Virus record (IMG/VR): IMGVR_UViG_3300025520_000006
Location: 1 to 58,137 of that record
Strand: one strand, 5' to 3'
From: a virus
Length of the DNA stretch: 58,137 nt
Positions 2,940 through 45,529 of this stretch are shown piece after piece; position 1 is the first letter of the stretch; every line of letters starts with the position of its first letter. The translations under genes and the position numbers were made by a program. Below the pieces are notes generated by a model. The model saw only the letters and a list, made by a program, of their open reading frames with translations. It had not been told where the DNA came from and ran no database searches.

Positions 2940-3013
2940 GCGGAAGTAGCTCAGTGGTAGAGCAGCGGCCACCTAGTCGCGTGTCGTTGGTTCAATCCCA
3001 ACCTTCCGCTCCA
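2940..3013 (+). tRNA. tRNA-Gly-like gene with a six-base anticodon loop
   Basis: The acceptor stem GCGGAAG/CTTCCGC with discriminator T and encoded CCA (3011-3013) carries glycine identity features (G1-C72, C2-G71, U73). The D stem GCTC/GAGC is perfect, and so is the T arm GTTGG-TTCAATC-CCAAC. The anticodon stem GCGGC/GTCGC has one G-T pair and leaves a loop of only six bases, CACCTA. If U33 was lost, the anticodon would be ACC (glycine, GGT codons). Function is uncertain because of the short loop. Confidence 0.65.
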
Positions 3014-9471: not shown

Positions 9472-9945
9472 ATGTCGAATCTTACATTCGGCGAGCGTCA
9501 TGTCGTCAAGGGCCTCGACGCCGTCGCGGATGCTTTTGCCGGCACGGTCTATTCCGACGTCGTCAACATGGAAGCGTATGCCGCCGCTCGGTTCATCGTC
9601 CATAAGGGCGTCGGGACCACCGGCACATCGACGCTCACGCTCGAAGCCTGCGACGATGCGGCTGGCAACAATCCCGTCGCAATCCCGTTCAGCTACCAGG
9701 CCTATGCCGGCGCTGATGATGTTCCAGCCGACGTCGTGAACGCCACCGCGGCCGGGTTTGCGACAACTGCCGGCTCGAGCCAGCTTTATGTGCTCGAAGC
9801 GGAGTCGCAGCGCATGCCGGCGGCGAAGCCATGGTTGCGATTGAAGGCTGTCGAGGTCGCAAATGACCCCGTGCTCGGCGGCGTTCTTATCGAACTGCTC
9901 AAGCCGCGCTATGCGCGTCACGTCCCGGATACCGCGATCGCCTGA
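9472..9945 (+). CDS. Probable capsid decoration/accessory protein
   Basis: A 157-residue, beta-rich, Gly/Thr/Ala-rich protein with a good AGGAGA ribosome site. It lies immediately after the major capsid gene, where head-decoration proteins are usual. I see no catalytic motif. The role is inferred from position and composition. Confidence 0.65.
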   Translation: MSNLTFGERHVVKGLDAVADAFAGTVYSDVVNMEAYAAARFIVHKGVGTTGTSTLTLEACDDAAGNNPVAIPFSYQAYAGADDVPADVVNATAAGFATTAGSSQLYVLEAESQRMPAAKPWLRLKAVEVANDPVLGGVLIELLKPRYARHVPDTAIA

Positions 9946-13358: not shown

Positions 13359-14285
13359 ATGCCGATTGCGCCGACCAGCCGCACGCGCGTCGCCTATATT
13401 GCCGAATCCGCCTTCGGCACGACGCCATCAACGCCGACATTCCTCGAAATTCGCCGCACCAGCGGCAATCTTCGCACGCGAAAAACAACCGCGGTTTCCG
13501 AGGAAATCCGTCTCGACCGCAACGTGCGCGCAGAATATCAGCTCGCCCAGGACGTCGAAGGGTCATATGATTTCGAGCTGACCTATGGCTCCTATGACGA
13601 TATCCTGGAGGCGGCTGTCGGCGGAGCATGGAATACGAACGTCCTCGTCAACGGGTCCGTTGAAAAAAGCCTCACCTTCGAGGAGACGATCGATGTTGGC
13701 GGCGGTAGCTTCGCCTATCACCGCTTCACCGGCGTCGAGGTCGACTCGCTGTCGCTGAACTTTACCGCACGCCGAGGCGTCACCGGCTCCGTTACCCTGC
13801 AAGGCAAGCAGGAAGCGCTCGATACGGCGATCATCTCCGGGGCCACCTATACGGCGCCGAACACGAACGTCATCGAAACGGCGAACAGCGTCGCGTCGCT
13901 GGCGGTCGCCAGCTTGTCGCCGGTCCCGATCGTGCGCAGCCTCTCGCTCAATATCGCCAACAATCTGCGCCGGCATGAAGTTCTGGGCTCGCTCTATACG
14001 AACAGCTTCGGCTCTGGCCAGTTGGACGTCACCGGCACGCTGGAAGCGTATTTCACGTCCAACGCGCTCTATCAGGCGGTGCTCGACCATGGCACGGGCG
14101 CGCTGGCGCTGACGATTGGTTCGGTGACGGCCAAGAAATACACGATCTCGCTTCCCGTCATTCAGTTTCTCGACGGGGCCAAAAGGCTCGGCGGGAAGAA
14201 CGATGACGTCATGGTGTCGATCCCGTTCCGCGCGGTCGCTGACTCGGCGCCGAAGTCGATCTCAATCACGAGGGCCGTTGCGTAA
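13359..14285 (+). CDS. Major tail tube protein
   Basis: A 308-residue protein. RVAYIAESAFGTTPSTP at the N-terminus, followed by a conserved EIRLDR strand and GSYDFELTYGSYDDILEAAVGG, is the typical pattern of tail tube proteins in this phage group. It polymerises around the tape measure protein to make the non-contractile tail. An AAGGAAG ribosome site precedes the ATG. Confidence 0.88.
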   Translation: MPIAPTSRTRVAYIAESAFGTTPSTPTFLEIRRTSGNLRTRKTTAVSEEIRLDRNVRAEYQLAQDVEGSYDFELTYGSYDDILEAAVGGAWNTNVLVNGSVEKSLTFEETIDVGGGSFAYHRFTGVEVDSLSLNFTARRGVTGSVTLQGKQEALDTAIISGATYTAPNTNVIETANSVASLAVASLSPVPIVRSLSLNIANNLRRHEVLGSLYTNSFGSGQLDVTGTLEAYFTSNALYQAVLDHGTGALALTIGSVTAKKYTISLPVIQFLDGAKRLGGKNDDVMVSIPFRAVADSAPKSISITRAVA

Positions 14286-41444: not shown

Positions 41445-41533
41445 GACAGCCTCACTGTCAGTGCCCAAAGCGAGAACAACCCGAAAGCCGCGATCGCGAC
41501 CGGAAGGCTCGCAACAAGGATTGCGTCAAGCAT
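41441..41533 (-). CDS. Membrane microprotein of the left operon (30 aa)
   Basis: A 30-residue peptide, MLDAILVASLPVAIAAFGLF and so on, consisting of one membrane helix. Its ATG lies 8 bp inside the end of the upstream gene and its stop overlaps the next ATG. The tight coupling on both sides supports translation. Confidence 0.55.
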   Translation of the reverse strand: MLDAILVASLPVAIAAFGLFSLWALTVRLS

Positions 41534-42212
41534 GGGAGTCGCCCTCTTCGATGAACTCACCGGCTTCATTCAGCGAATAGAACTTGCCGGCGACAATGCC
41601 GTTTTCGCCGACCTTGCTCGCGCGAATGGCGACGATGTTTCCGTTGGTGTCACGGCAGACGACGCAGATCGCGCCAGTCTCGGAAGCCATGGCGCGTGAC
41701 GCAAAACCAGCGGCAAGGGCGACGCCCCTCACGCCGGTTGCGCTCGCCGCGCCCCTATAGCCGGTTGCGCTCGCCGCGCCCCTCACGCCGGTTGCGCTCG
41801 CCGCGCCCCTCACGCCGGTTGCGCTCGAACCTTCGCCTTCCGGCTTGGCCCGCTCAAAAACCCACTTCACCGCGCGGGCGACAATGTCGCCGATGGAAAG
41901 CTCGACGCCGATGGTGATTGTCGAACTGGCGATCTTGGTGTCGCCACCATGGCGCCCGATCTCGCCACCTTGCTCGACTTCATGAAAGCGCGAACTTGCG
42001 GGCGGATAGTAATTTAACACGTCGAGCGGATATTCGCAGGCGTGGAAGCCGTTCTCGCAAGCGACGATCGGCCCTTCGACGGAATATGTTTTGCCTTGCT
42101 CGAATTGAAATCCGCGACAGGTCAAATCGCGATTAAAGCCTTTCACCGTCTTGATGACGGCAGGCTCCGGCTGAATATCGGCGCCGTCAGAATTTTTTGG
42201 CTTACGAGCCAT
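41526..42212 (-). CDS. DUF7666-like protein with nine-residue tandem repeats
   Basis: A 228-residue protein, first in the left operon. KTVKGFNRDLTCRGFQFEQGKTY and CENGFHACEYPLDVLNYYPP match the DUF7666-like phage family. In the centre, four copies of a nine-residue unit SATGVRGAA (one with Y for V) are encoded by a 27-bp tandem repeat. The start is taken at the second ATG, with GGAGGGG as ribosome site; a TTG at 42224 is also possible. Confidence 0.78.
   Translation of the reverse strand: MARKPKNSDGADIQPEPAVIKTVKGFNRDLTCRGFQFEQGKTYSVEGPIVACENGFHACEYPLDVLNYYPPASSRFHEVEQGGEIGRHGGDTKIASSTITIGVELSIGDIVARAVKWVFERAKPEGEGSSATGVRGAASATGVRGAASATGYRGAASATGVRGVALAAGFASRAMASETGAICVVCRDTNGNIVAIRASKVGENGIVAGKFYSLNEAGEFIEEGDSHA
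41722..41826 (-). repeat. 27-bp tandem repeat inside the DUF7666-like gene
   Basis: CCGGTTGCGCTCG recurs at 41734, 41761, 41788 and 41815 on the plus strand, exactly 27 bp apart, with nearly identical units between. It encodes the SATG(V/Y)RGAA repeats. The near identity suggests recent expansion and possible length variation. Confidence 0.85.
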
Positions 42213-42244
42213 CATCCCCTCCAAGGCAAGCGCCTATGGAGGCA

Positions 42245-42273
42245 AGGAAAGCACAGCTTTCATTCCCGCGCAA
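42245..42273 (-). promoter_or_regulatory. Leftward early promoter (PL) candidate
   Basis: On the minus strand, TTGCGC (42273-42268), a 17-bp spacer and TTTCCT (42250-42245). The rightward promoter has the same design (TTGCCT-17-TTTCCT), and in both the operator palindrome lies between and over the -10. Expected start near 42238, giving a 26-nt leader with a good ribosome site. Confidence 0.55.
42247..42261. promoter_or_regulatory. Operator OL1
   Basis: A perfect palindrome GAAAGC-ACA-GCTTTC over the leftward promoter. Read on the minus strand, it and the following bases match the rightward operator for 20 bp (43317-43336). Proposed repressor binding site. Confidence 0.8.
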
Positions 42274-42281
42274 GCAGAAAA

Positions 42282-42296
42282 GAAAGCGCGGCTTTC
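42282..42296. promoter_or_regulatory. Operator OL2
   Basis: A perfect palindrome GAAAGC-GCG-GCTTTC, 35 bp centre to centre from OL1. It also lies just upstream of a rightward promoter-like sequence (42304-42332), with its centre near position -50, where a bound repressor might activate. Confidence 0.78.
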
Positions 42297-42303
42297 ATTT
42301 TTC

Positions 42304-42332
42304 TTGACAGGCGCTTTTTTGCTGCCTACAAG
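42304..42332 (+). promoter_or_regulatory. Rightward promoter candidate between left operon and repressor
   Basis: A perfect -35 TTGACA (42304-42309), a 17-bp spacer and TACAAG (42327-42332). There is no coding sequence downstream on this strand before the 3' end of the repressor gene; the transcript would contain the three-way-junction element at 42402-42460 and run antisense to the repressor message. Confidence 0.5.
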
Positions 42333-42380
42333 CCCGAAGGGGACTCGCGCGGGATACAGACACCGAACGGAGAACTGAAA

Positions 42381-42488
42381 GATTCAGCTTAAATAACCTT
42401 GGTACTGGTGCTGACTCATTCTGGGTCAGGGGGGCGCTTTAAGGCGCCCCCTCCCAGTACACCTAGATTGCAGGTAATGATTCAGCTT
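42381..42488. repeat. Direct repeat GATTCAGCTT flanking the structured element
   Basis: GATTCAGCTT occurs at 42381-42390 and 42479-42488, placed about 20 bp outside each end of the three-way-junction sequence. Significance unknown. Confidence 0.5.
42402..42460 (+). ncRNA. Three-way-junction RNA/DNA element (candidate small RNA)
   Basis: Three nested helices close on each other: P1 GTACTGG/CCAGTAC (42402-42408 with 42454-42460), P2 TGACTC/GGGTCA with one T-G pair (42412-42417 with 42423-42428) and P3 GGGGGCGC/GCGCCCCC (42430-42437 with 42444-42451, loop TTTAAG). Only six bases are unpaired at the junction. There is no T-run, so it is not a standard terminator. It lies in a 349-bp gap without genes. 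The strand is set by the promoter-like sequence at 42304 but is uncertain. Confidence 0.5.
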
Positions 42489-42561: not shown

Positions 42562-43257
42562 CTACCCCGTATATTTACCGACGACGCGGTAGGCGGTTGT
42601 CCATTCCTTCTTCGGTAACGTTATTTCCTTTGGTGGGTTGAATTGCCGCACCACATATTCTTGGTCTGTCGACCGGATTAGCCTCTTGATGCTTGCTCGA
42701 AAATCGCCTTCAGGCTCCCCGGCGATAAAAATCGCGTCCTTATTTCGAATGGGCGTCAGCTTTGGATTCACCAGCGCCATGTCGCCTGGCTCATAGGCCG
42801 GCTCCATTGAGTCGCCAACCACGACAACGACGAAGGCATCGCGGATTCGCTCGAAAAACCATGGGCGCGGGACCATGTCGATTGGATCGGTTGAGACCAC
42901 CATCGCCCCAGGGCCTCCTTCGACAGCTGCGTAAACCGGCAGGTCTCGGCGCCCAAGAAGCTGCGGCGGCGGCCTGTAGTTGCGATCGTCTTGCAACATC
43001 TCGTCTGACACCTCGCGGAATTGATCCAGAGGGATCGGTTTGCCGATCGGCGGCCGGCCTGACCCTCTCACGATCCATTCGACGGGGGCGCCCGCGAGTT
43101 CGGCGATTCGGAGCAGATGCCGCTTGTCGATGTCACCGCCGCGCTCCCAGTTGCCGACAGCCCCTCTGGTGATGCCGAGCACCGCCGCGAGTTTGGCTTG
43201 GGTGAAGCCAAGAATGTCACGGCGGATGTGGATTATTCTGTCAGCTAGGGTTTCCAT
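42562..43257 (-). CDS. CI/LexA-type phage repressor (helix-turn-helix + S24 peptidase)
   Basis: 231 residues. Helix-turn-helix at about 19-38 (TQAKLAAVLGITRGAVGNWE). The S24 self-cleaving domain has VVVGDSMEPAYEPGD with Ser150 and RASIKRL with Lys191; the cleavage region is near AAVEGGPG (about 111-117). RecA-stimulated self-cleavage would induce the prophage on DNA damage. The gene lies between the two operator clusters, as lambda cI does. Confidence 0.93.
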   Translation of the reverse strand: METLADRIIHIRRDILGFTQAKLAAVLGITRGAVGNWERGGDIDKRHLLRIAELAGAPVEWIVRGSGRPPIGKPIPLDQFREVSDEMLQDDRNYRPPPQLLGRRDLPVYAAVEGGPGAMVVSTDPIDMVPRPWFFERIRDAFVVVVVGDSMEPAYEPGDMALVNPKLTPIRNKDAIFIAGEPEGDFRASIKRLIRSTDQEYVVRQFNPPKEITLPKKEWTTAYRVVGKYTG

Positions 43258-43293
43258 ACCGCCATCTTCGTGCTTCCGCCGCTTTCAATCATC

Positions 43294-43308
43294 GAAAGTT
43301 TCTCTTGC
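43294..43308. promoter_or_regulatory. Degenerate operator OR2
   Basis: GAAAGT-TTC-TCTTGC matches the GAAAGC-N3-GCTTTC palindrome in 9 of 12 arm positions. Its centre is 23 bp from OR1. It would be a weaker repressor site, perhaps controlling the repressor's own promoter. Confidence 0.45.
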
Positions 43309-43333
43309 CTGCAAAAGAAAGCTGTGCTTTCCT
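43305..43333 (+). promoter_or_regulatory. Rightward early promoter (PR) candidate
   Basis: TTGCCT (43305-43310), 17-bp spacer, TTTCCT (43328-43333), the same design as the leftward promoter, with OR1 spanning spacer and -10. The expected start, near 43340, coincides with the ATG of the Cro-like gene, and no ribosome site is visible, so that message may be leaderless. Confidence 0.55.
43317..43331. promoter_or_regulatory. Operator OR1
   Basis: A perfect palindrome GAAAGC-TGT-GCTTTC, 10 bp before the Cro-like start. It shares 20 identical bases with OL1 in inverted orientation, which strongly suggests one repressor binds both. Confidence 0.82.
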
Positions 43334-43340
43334 TGCTCTC

Positions 43341-43589
43341 ATGGATCGAATTGCAGACTCTCTCGAACGGGCAAAAGCCGCCGCTGGCGGCAACACAGGG
43401 CTGGCGCGCGCGATCGGAAACATCTCCGCGCAAGCGATCTCCCAGTGGAAGAAAGTTCCCGCTGAGCGCGTAATCGAAGTCGAGAGAGCGACGGGCGTTT
43501 CCCGCCGGGAACTTCGACCAGACCTCTACCCGCCTGAAAAACCAGAACAGTTGCCGTCCGCCTCCCCTTTCACGGAGGCTGCGCAGTGA
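43341..43589 (+). CDS. Cro/YdaS-type repressor
   Basis: An 82-residue protein. GGNTGLARAIGNISAQAISQWKKVPAERVIEVERATGVSRRELRPDLYP, broken by turns, matches YdaS-type Cro analogues: helix-turn-helix at about 15-35 and the RPDLYP block. First gene of the rightward early operon and divergent from the CI-type repressor. The ATG at 43341 is chosen because it fits the domain start and OR1; the upstream ATG lies within the promoter. Confidence 0.9.
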   Translation: MDRIADSLERAKAAAGGNTGLARAIGNISAQAISQWKKVPAERVIEVERATGVSRRELRPDLYPPEKPEQLPSASPFTEAAQ

Positions 43590-43756
43590 AGAACCACGTT
43601 CTGAACCCCGCCTTGATCGTGTCGGTTCATGGCAACGAACGCGGCGATCTGGAGATCGCAACGCGCGACCAGAGCAGTGATGGCGCGCCTGAAGATCGCG
43701 CCAAAGGACTTGCCTATCTCATTGAAGCGCTCGAGCGCTTGCGGGAGGCGCAATGA
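43586..43756 (+). CDS. Small protein after Cro (56 aa)
   Basis: 56 residues from a GTG overlapping the Cro stop (GTGA). VSVHGNERGDLEIATRDQS then APEDRAKGLAYLIEALERL. Its stop overlaps the next ATG (ATGA). No family recognised; the tight overlaps support it. Confidence 0.6.
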   Translation: MKNHVLNPALIVSVHGNERGDLEIATRDQSSDGAPEDRAKGLAYLIEALERLREAQ

Positions 43757-43896
43757 CAGATCGGAATGAAACGAATCTCAGTACGGCAGCGTCGCTGATC
43801 GTCATCGGCTGTCTCGGCATCACAATCGGGTTGTTCCTCTACTTCGCGGTAACGGCAGTCGACGACACCGTTCGAATGGCGTTTGGACCAAGCTGA
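43753..43896 (+). CDS. Small membrane protein after Cro (47 aa)
   Basis: 47 residues with a single membrane helix (AASLIVIGCLGITIGLFLYF). ATGA overlap with the previous gene. It is the last coding sequence before a 550-bp untranslated stretch. Role unknown. Confidence 0.6.
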   Translation: MTDRNETNLSTAASLIVIGCLGITIGLFLYFAVTAVDDTVRMAFGPS

Positions 43897-44445
43897 ATAA
43901 ATTTCCTCCTCCCAGGGGAAATGCGTGTGCCGCAGCGCTTGTGCGGCGACGATCGGGCATGGGCTGCGGGTTCTTTCCCTTTCTTACCGCTGCTCATGTT
44001 TGCACCAGCGCTGCGGTCGCTGGCCGGTAATGCCCGCACGCTAGCGCAGCGGCAAGCGCAGTCCCGTGAAACTCGGGGCGCCAGAATTCAGATCGGGAGT
44101 GCGGGACGTCGTGTGCTGCAAAGGGGCCCGAAAGGGTTGACGACGCACTCAGGCACGCGATGGCGGGACGCGCCGGTAAATCCCGCCGACTATTCACGGC
44201 TTCGTCGGTCACGCAACCGGCAGGGAACTCGAGAGTGATGAGGATCACGCATCGAGGATGCGGATGCGAGGGAGTTGTGCCCTCATCATCCGCGACCAGC
44301 GCGGAAGGCAAAGGTAACGCGTTCCTTCCGGCGTTGGCGTCTGAATTTGGCGACGCGCCGTGCTGCCAGGCGAATGCGCGTCGGAGAGTTGGGTTTTGGT
44401 TCAAGTCCCTCATGTCTGCATCAAACAGCATGAGGATTCGTAAAA
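43897..44445 (+). ncRNA. Hairpin-rich untranslated region, candidate structured RNA
   Basis: About 550 bp inside the rightward early operon with no convincing protein. Perfect or near-perfect hairpins follow one another: ATTTCCTC/GGGGAAAT; GCCGCA/TGCGGC (near 43930-43948); CCAGCG/CGCTGG (near 44008-44026); a long stem with GAGTG, CGTCGT / ACGACG, CACTC around a CCC-GAAA-GGG hairpin (about 44098-44151); GGCGGGA/TCCCGCC (44162-44187); GCGGATG-c-GAGGG / CCCTC-at-CATCCGC (44260-44293); CGACGCGC/GCGCGTCG (about 44352-44384). Two overlapping frames of 105 and 145 codons exist but look non-biological. Function unknown; a leader or antitermination RNA is one possibility. Confidence 0.45.
44260..44293 (+). 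other. Strong 12-bp hairpin in the untranslated region
   Basis: GCGGATG and GAGGG (44260-44266, 44268-44272) pair with CCCTC and CATCCGC (44280-44284, 44287-44293), separated by a small internal loop and a 7-base terminal loop. It is the most stable single element of this region. Confidence 0.6.
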
Positions 44446-44832
44446 ATGCGAAAAGGCGACGTAACGAAAATGAGCGCGCTTCTCGAAGCGAGTCAGTTGG
44501 TCAGATCGCTGGCGTCCCCGCCGATGGTGGGGGATACCGTGAAGCGACAGATCGCGCGCGCCGCCCGCCGCATTCCTTTTTGGTCAACATCCCGAGTGAA
44601 GTCAGTTTGGTATCGCGATGAGCGATATCGGATCAGCGCTGACGAGATCGCGCAGCTTCGGGACATCGCCGACATGCAACAAAAAGACGCGGGACATGAA
44701 GAGCTACAGAAACTCAGAGCACGAGTCGCCCGCCTCGAAACGCTACTTCGCATTTCGGATCCGCAATTCAATAGCGATCAGATTAATGCGCTTTGCCGAT
44801 CGGATCGCGGTGTTAATAGCGCCTTGGATTGA
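44446..44832 (+). CDS. Early right-operon protein with C-terminal coiled coil
   Basis: 128 residues: a basic N-terminal part (VKRQIARAARRIPFWSTSRVKSVWYRDERYRISADE) suggesting nucleic-acid binding, then a coiled coil (HEELQKLRARVARLETLL). A GAGGA ribosome-like sequence lies before the ATG. Conserved small regulators of this build occur in phages; no family named. Confidence 0.65.
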   Translation: MRKGDVTKMSALLEASQLVRSLASPPMVGDTVKRQIARAARRIPFWSTSRVKSVWYRDERYRISADEIAQLRDIADMQQKDAGHEELQKLRARVARLETLLRISDPQFNSDQINALCRSDRGVNSALD

Positions 44833-44835
44833 TGA

Positions 44836-45045
44836 ATGACGCGGCGGCCGCCCACAGCAATGTCGCCGCTCGAGCAAAATATCACCATCGCCGAATTGGC
44901 CTCGCGCATCGCGGAACTCGAGCGGATGCGCGACGAACTCCAAGACGCGAACAGTCGCTTGTTGGAGCGAGCTAGGACGGCCGAACTCAGGCTCGCTGAA
45001 TTGCAGACTGAAGGAGTAACTGCAGATGGCCAAGGCAGGACATAA
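44836..45045 (+). CDS. Short coiled-coil protein
   Basis: 69 residues, nearly all one coiled coil (ITIAELASRIAELERMRDEL, LLERARTAELRLAEL). It overlaps the next gene by 20 bp. The ATG at 44860 is an alternative start. Role unknown. Confidence 0.55.
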   Translation: MTRRPPTAMSPLEQNITIAELASRIAELERMRDELQDANSRLLERARTAELRLAELQTEGVTADGQGRT

Positions 45046-45529
45046 CGGCGTCGATCCTAAGGTTCTAGCGCGATGGACAGGTGAAGTTCTGCGCGTCTAC
45101 GACGATCTCGCCGCGCAGAAAATTGCGAACATGGACAAGTGCAAGGAGATCAGGGAGCCGCTAACTGATCTCTATGATGCCGCGAAAAACGCAGGCCTGA
45201 ACCTCAAGGCTTTCAAATCTCATATCAAGGTTGAACTTGCGCAGCGGGCCTACGAGCGCGCGGTTGCGAAGGCGGAACCGGAGGACGACGAGGATCTCGA
45301 GGCGTTCGAAGCGCTGCGCGCCGTCGCCGAAGCCGGAGATCTTTTCGACGCCGCAGTGCAGGCCAACGAAAAGAAAAAAGGCGGCGGCAAGAAGGCTACG
45401 GATGACGACGAGAAAGACGTTCGGCCTCGTCATCTCAAGGATCTCGAACAGCAGCGCGTCGAGGAGAACACGCGCCGGCTCGAGGAAGGAATCAGCGGTC
45501 TACCGAACGCGGACGCCACGGACGCTTAG
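45026..45529 (+). CDS. GapR/DUF2312-like early protein
   Basis: A 167-residue protein. The AGHNGVDPKVLARW opening, LTDLYDAAKNAGLNLKAFKSHIKVE and a long acidic/basic helical tail resemble phage proteins related to DUF2312/GapR, alphaproteobacterial DNA-binding proteins that recognise overtwisted DNA. Similarity is by pattern only. The tail (KKKGGGKKATDDDEKD) is disordered. Confidence 0.65.
   Translation: MAKAGHNGVDPKVLARWTGEVLRVYDDLAAQKIANMDKCKEIREPLTDLYDAAKNAGLNLKAFKSHIKVELAQRAYERAVAKAEPEDDEDLEAFEALRAVAEAGDLFDAAVQANEKKKGGGKKATDDDEKDVRPRHLKDLEQQRVEENTRRLEEGISGLPNADATDA

Follow-up and report, generated by a model that had tools for sequence, protein, structure and literature searches.

A hairpin-rich non-coding region in the early operon of an alphaproteobacterial phage as a possible anti-Shine-Dalgarno regulatory RNA module

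What is carried by 549 bases of a phage's early operon in which no gene is evident? The window analysed here (the whole 58,137-base virus sequence) has the layout of a temperate phage, its host is an alphaproteobacterium, and the stretch in question sits in the early right operon. Most of the remaining operon genes abut or overlap, unlike bases 43897-44445, and the compactness noted in the preliminary description was thus seen again. The same description had proposed that the region is a structured RNA with a job. The features of the locus are shown in Table 1. The 128-aa protein encoded directly downstream is helical, and a fold search with it returned only weak matches to EspR-like HTH proteins (E at least 0.75). 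Elsewhere in the window, an ORF at 41526-42224 (-) encodes SATGVRGAA-type repeats, bases 41923-42472 are among the best-folding stretches of the 58 kb on both strands, and a tRNA-like gene without a called anticodon lies at 2940-3013, near tRNA-Pro and tRNA-Gln.

Table 1. Features of the early right operon and of the hairpin array in the window.
Feature	Position	Strand	Remarks
CI	42562-43257	-	Diverges from the Cro/YdaS-like gene; early right operon of cI/cro type
Cro/YdaS-like gene	43305-43589	+	Two small ORFs come next; the 47-aa membrane ORF is the second
47-aa small membrane-protein ORF	43753-43896	+	SD GGGAGG; stop abuts the array
Hairpin array	43897-44445	+	Structured spacer in the rightward early RNA; 549 bases; fold and inverted-repeat tests
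H1 hairpin	43901-43922	+	ATTTCCTC-ctccca-GGGGAAAT; inverted repeat; holds the anti-SD motif, partly in the stem
Anti-Shine-Dalgarno motif	43905-43913	+	CCTCCTCCC; sole copy in 58 kb, both strands searched
Long nested stem-loop group	43922-44059	+	Inverted repeats 43929-43947, 43958-43998 and 44001-44048
145-codon open frame	43994-44431	-	No SD; homology to the minus-strand gene of the relatives is not recognisable
Stem with GAAA-capped core	44107-44162	+	Core CCCGAAAGGG at 44127-44136; fold and inverted repeat
Middle GC-rich hairpins	44229-44330	+	Inverted repeats 44229-44295 and 44302-44330
H4-like hairpin	44351-44383	+	Loop has CTGCCAGG, as has the H4 loop in L005 and L051; likeness judged by eye
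H5 hairpin	44408-44435	+	3' arm contains the SD (GAGG) of the next gene
Start-codon hairpin	44437-44452	+	UUCGUA-AAAA-UGCGAA; counterpart of a small hairpin of the relatives
128-aa gene, phrog_27989 type	44446-44832	+	ATG 3' of the array; positional marker in relatives

Within the region, five ORFs of 105, 145, 153, 66 and 52 amino acids were present. All of their codon scores lay between -0.36 and -0.04, the range of wrong frames, compared with 0.156 for the lowest 5% of true genes. None of the three longest matched a Pfam or PHROG family above chance, and the longest stop-free run of the region was of chance length (P = 0.34). All of these results are non-coding in character and agree with the earlier view that no believable gene is present.

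The + strand of the region folded to -254 kcal/mol with a dinucleotide z of -3.88, better than all 100 shuffled sequences, while the - strand of the same 549 bases gave a z of -2.66 in the shuffle test. Eight inverted repeats scoring at least 9 were counted against an expected 4.15 ± 1.34 (maximum of 7 in 60 shuffles), and the hairpin-rich nature first attributed to the region was confirmed. When the phage's own 549-nt windows served as the yardstick, with composition removed by regression, the + strand fold took 11th place among about 423 strand-windows, with an unremarkable - strand, so the window alone carries a real but moderate signal, chiefly of the rightward RNA. The GAAA-capped core inside a longer stem, pointed out in the preliminary description, was located (Table 1); no family match was obtained for this hairpin, and the suggestion of a ribozyme-like element found no support. 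No Rfam family matched the region 43897-44445, and the sub-threshold matches in the window to SAM-III and other families were regarded as chance. A scan of 43200-45100 for sigma-70 promoters of the consensus type found none.

H1 of the window begins just 3' of the stop of the membrane ORF and is weak, with a local z of -0.9 and a stem that swapped arms reach in 15% of cases. At the other end of the array, bases 44400-44460, which hold the SD hairpin and the start-codon hairpin, gave a z of -3.9, and none of 200 shuffles was as good. With the array sequence as the query, no homologue was found in phages, and 385 genomes gave only chance-like matches of 30-48 nt; the array of the window therefore has no sequence relative with which covariation could be tested within it. 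A neutral spacer, in which GC-rich DNA forms hairpins by chance and only the position is common to the relatives, would fit this result and the 11th rank among the strand-windows. It is quite improbable in view of the dinucleotide z, the twofold excess of inverted repeats, the unique anti-SD motif at a shared place, the hairpins over the SD and the start codon, and the compact operon around it.

The next gene (44446-44832), used as the probe, led to 65 loci, nearly all of them from Rhizobiales. A tblastn search with the 128-aa protein matched two Rhizobium phages, and a three-protein alignment search gave 42 viral contigs and 21 genome loci, of which the named ones were nearly all Rhizobiales. 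The 128-aa, 167-aa and 562-aa proteins alone as probes produced no close relatives, and CI gave the closest kin (L078). The 128-aa protein of the window is about 24-35% identical to the proteins of the relatives, which makes the window a distant member. A small membrane ORF was found at the corresponding place in those relatives whose loci were read.

Most of the loci showed a row of strong hairpins directly 5' of the phrog_27989-type gene. The median fold z of the 340 bases upstream was -4.0 (+) and -2.9 (-) in 43 non-redundant loci. Over 400 bases, 176 hairpins were counted in 46 loci versus 72 in 63 nearby genic pieces, and for the strongest hairpin class the counts were 81 and 7, respectively. 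In phiLM21 (L188) the array and a minus-strand gene precede an unrelated + gene (gp24), and in RHph_TM3_3_3 they precede a very distant one. In these contexts the array looks like an independent unit, and its place before an unrelated gene in phiLM21 argues against cis control of the phrog_27989-type gene specifically. Many phages and prophages of Rhizobium-like bacteria share the hairpin array at this position; a literature search of incomplete coverage found no paper describing it in phages.

The recurring parts of the relatives' arrays were a 5' hairpin (H1), middle hairpins (H2/H3), a terminator-like hairpin (H4), an SD-covering hairpin (H5) and a start-codon hairpin. H1 lies at about -370 to -250 and combines a long GC stem with a CU-rich loop, which is often exactly CCTCCTCCC. 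This loop was seen in 31 hairpins of the + strand, 26 of which lay in the upstream zone, and in none of the - strand. Motifs of this kind occurred in 27 of 47 loci, most of them in a strong hairpin's loop, and were absent from about 20 of the 47. In a test that started from the motif alone, with no search for stems, the motif-anchored stems had a median pairing of 9.0, compared with 4.0 when arms were swapped between loci. H4 lies at about -130 to -65, often with a GACG...CGTC stem. H5 overlaps or abuts the Shine-Dalgarno site in many loci, and the start codon is inside a small hairpin, UCGGA-AAUG-UCCGA, in most relatives.

An alignment of 21 loci contained two of the middle hairpins (H2/H3) in which 96% of the cells were paired versus 85% in shuffled data, and pairing fell to about 30-55% when the partners were slid. 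These middle hairpins showed 42 two-sided changes versus 9.6 expected. The search for homologues and covariation that the preliminary description had called for thus gave nothing by the array sequence itself and a positive result for the two middle hairpins of the relatives. At A3 columns ~336-346, a loop occurs as CCG[TTGGCG]CGG or CCG[CGCCAA]CGG, as if inverted between the arms; both orientations were seen on comparing L008 with L014, L019 and L028. The array of the window is about 200 bases longer than those of the relatives, and its middle part is without a recognised counterpart. Judging from its position and parts, it is likely, but not proven, to be a divergent homologous copy of the relatives' arrays.

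The wobble pairs of the relatives' hairpins were used to ask which strand folds, since a G-U pair is tolerated in a folding RNA and reads as A-C on the opposite strand. The G-U to A-C counts were 19:1 for H1, 15:3 for H4 and 6:22 for the middle hairpins, with 30:39 in genic controls; these are small numbers from related sequences, in zones that were set after the arrays had been viewed. When the loci were thinned to the strictest cut, the counts were 7:1 for H1, 5:13 for the middle hairpins and 10:1 for H4, a weaker bias in the same direction. The RNase P control gave a clear signal of 234:9 (on aligned sequences, not with the hairpin finder of the array test). This class-wise test on interior pairs replaced a first G-U versus A-C test on all inverted repeats, which was dropped because RNase P gave no signal in it (100:87). 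The wobble bias suggests the rightward RNA as the place of action of H1 and H4, and the leftward RNA as that of the middle hairpins. A covariance model of H4 contained no base pairs and was left unused.

Known RNA systems offered two close comparisons for H1. In the ar14 RNAs, which are hairpins, the stems are described as hypervariable and the CCUCCUCCC loop, which pairs with ribosome-binding sites, as ultraconserved (PMC10746234, PMC7143759, PMC3927594). The ar14/NfeR1 family (RF02344), with SmelA075/SmelA099 and the cuckoo family of alphaproteobacteria, shares with the relatives' H1 both the CCUCCUCCC loop and variable, co-varying stems. The compensating stem changes that mark ar14 were found in the relatives, as given by the arm-swapping result above; the window is a single sequence. 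Two relatives, L040 and L010, were tested against Rfam, having been picked because the motif is present in them. Both gave ar14 matches on the + strand, with E values of 3.3e-7 (L040) and 3.3e-3; the scores were 44.7 bits for L040 and 26.7 bits for L010 against a gathering cut-off of 58.8 bits, with none for the window. L010 also matched CcsR1 (RF02791) on the + strand, directly 3' of a small gene (E 1.2e-4), and the CcsR1 scores were 26.8 bits for L010 and 21.4 bits for L040 against a cut-off of 65.3 bits, again with none for the window. The earlier statement that no RNA family can be recognised therefore stands for the window and not for L040 (ar14) and L010 (CcsR1), whose matches are sub-threshold.

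Differences from these families were also seen. An ar14 RNA has three motif hairpins, whereas the window has one and the relatives usually have one or two; ar14 is an sRNA gene with its own promoter, while the array lies inside a phage early operon, with further hairpins 3' of the motif and, in relatives, an overlapping antisense gene. CcsR1 resembles the array of L010 in its CCUCCUCCC-motif hairpins but is a stress-induced RNA described from the Rhodobacter chromosome, in contrast to the phage context here. Taken with the sequence of the window, these comparisons lead us to tentatively favour a regulatory RNA module of ar14/cuckoo-like anti-SD type, carried by the rightward early transcript and covering the ribosome-binding site with its 3' end, as the best, if slightly less than even, explanation of the region. 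It draws on the position, the array, the covariation and the strand-specific motif of the relatives, and on the motif and the hairpins over the SD and the start codon in the window itself.

The main rival of an anti-SD module is a terminator or attenuator comparable to lambda tR1, situated after cro and before the early gene that follows, in which the hairpins would pause or stop RNA polymerase and antitermination would allow read-through. The operon position matches that of lambda tR1/nutR, which lies between cro and cII, and the wobble bias of H4 favours the rightward RNA. In the relatives the H4 tails are T-enriched (3.6 T in 9; at least 5 T in 4 of 18), T tails occur in some loci, and the H4 of L054 is a textbook terminator with a TTTTTT tail. 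L078 has, in the corresponding interval (reverse complement ~9540-9680), the canonical terminator GCCGGGGCTACGGCCCCGGCTTTTTC and a second small palindrome, with no long array. A GC hairpin followed by a T run is thus present in L054 and L078 but absent in the window, where the array is composed of many hairpins, none of them with a T tail, and a terminator scan shows no excess. H1-H3 of the relatives are likewise without T tails, and the anti-SD loops are left unexplained by termination, which we consider a rather unlikely account of the region. An antitermination RNA of the put type had also been suggested. In HK022, the put RNA is short, with two stem-loops; it is located near the promoter and acts on the elongating polymerase. 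It is comparable in being a structured RNA of an early phage transcript but differs from the array, which is about 550 nt long and follows cro and two small genes; in this comparison, made by description only, no evidence favouring put-type antitermination was met.

A small gene on the opposite strand also had to be weighed. In about 35 relatives the array is overlapped by a gene of 64-112 codons on the minus strand, which starts 46-54 bases from the ATG of the + gene and is mostly preceded by an SD-like AAGGAG or GGAG. Its codon-position counts (1707, 1385 and 2469) and a median dN/dS of 0.45 identify this frame as a gene. In phiLM21, the conserved frame lies on the - strand at 13562-13771 of the record, yet gp23 is annotated on the + strand over the array, which is probably a misannotation. 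A conserved protein frame, named in the preliminary description as the finding that would speak against a structured RNA, therefore exists in relatives, on the opposite strand, and is not detectable in the window. If a gene of this kind, present or recent, had diverged beyond recognition in the window, the hairpins could be a side effect of it. The 145-codon frame of the window has G+C contents by codon position of 0.65, 0.58 and 0.64, close to the 0.67, 0.56 and 0.65 of the relatives' gene, and with such similar composition codon statistics have no power on this frame. The frame gave no HMM match to the relatives' gene even at E 100, it is without an SD, and its length is expected by chance. 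In relatives, the paired arms change together while the encoded protein changes too, as in L023, where the peptide changes along with the arms, so the hairpins are not merely a by-product of the protein; L006, L027, L046 and L052 retain hairpins without the minus-strand gene. A hidden minus-strand gene as the source of the hairpins is accordingly improbable.

An ar14/cuckoo-like module would work as follows. The rightward early (cro) transcript would contain the region as a structured stretch that codes for no protein, and regulation would most likely be post-transcriptional, at the level of translation. The anti-SD motif of the 5' hairpin, of the ar14/cuckoo (CcsR) type, may pair with ribosome-binding sites, either in cis with those of neighbouring cistrons or, once the RNA has been processed, in trans. 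With the SD and start codon of the next gene enclosed in the final hairpins, translation of that gene would stay low until these hairpins are opened. In relatives, a terminator-like hairpin precedes the gene, and the array would also be overlapped by a leftward transcript, which has hairpins of its own and carries the small gene; the two strands may be opposed in this way. For the relatives, a structured RNA with a job, as first proposed, is backed by the shared position, the covariation and the motif stems; we infer the homology of the window's array, the production of its RNA and every functional step.

A broader proposal, which we regard as doubtful, is that a two-strand regulatory RNA element, with rightward anti-SD and terminator-like hairpins and leftward small-gene hairpins, forms a lysis-lysogeny or early-gene switch in temperate phages of Rhizobiales. 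The array is unusual in that each hairpin can be assigned tentatively, from its wobble pairs, to the RNA of one strand, and any annotation that the region has received is as hypothetical proteins. If the anti-SD reading is true, temperate phages of Rhizobiales would have, at the lambda-like decision point of their genomes, anti-SD hairpins of the kind with which the hosts silence many mRNAs, and the use of a host riboregulatory code by phages would be directly testable.
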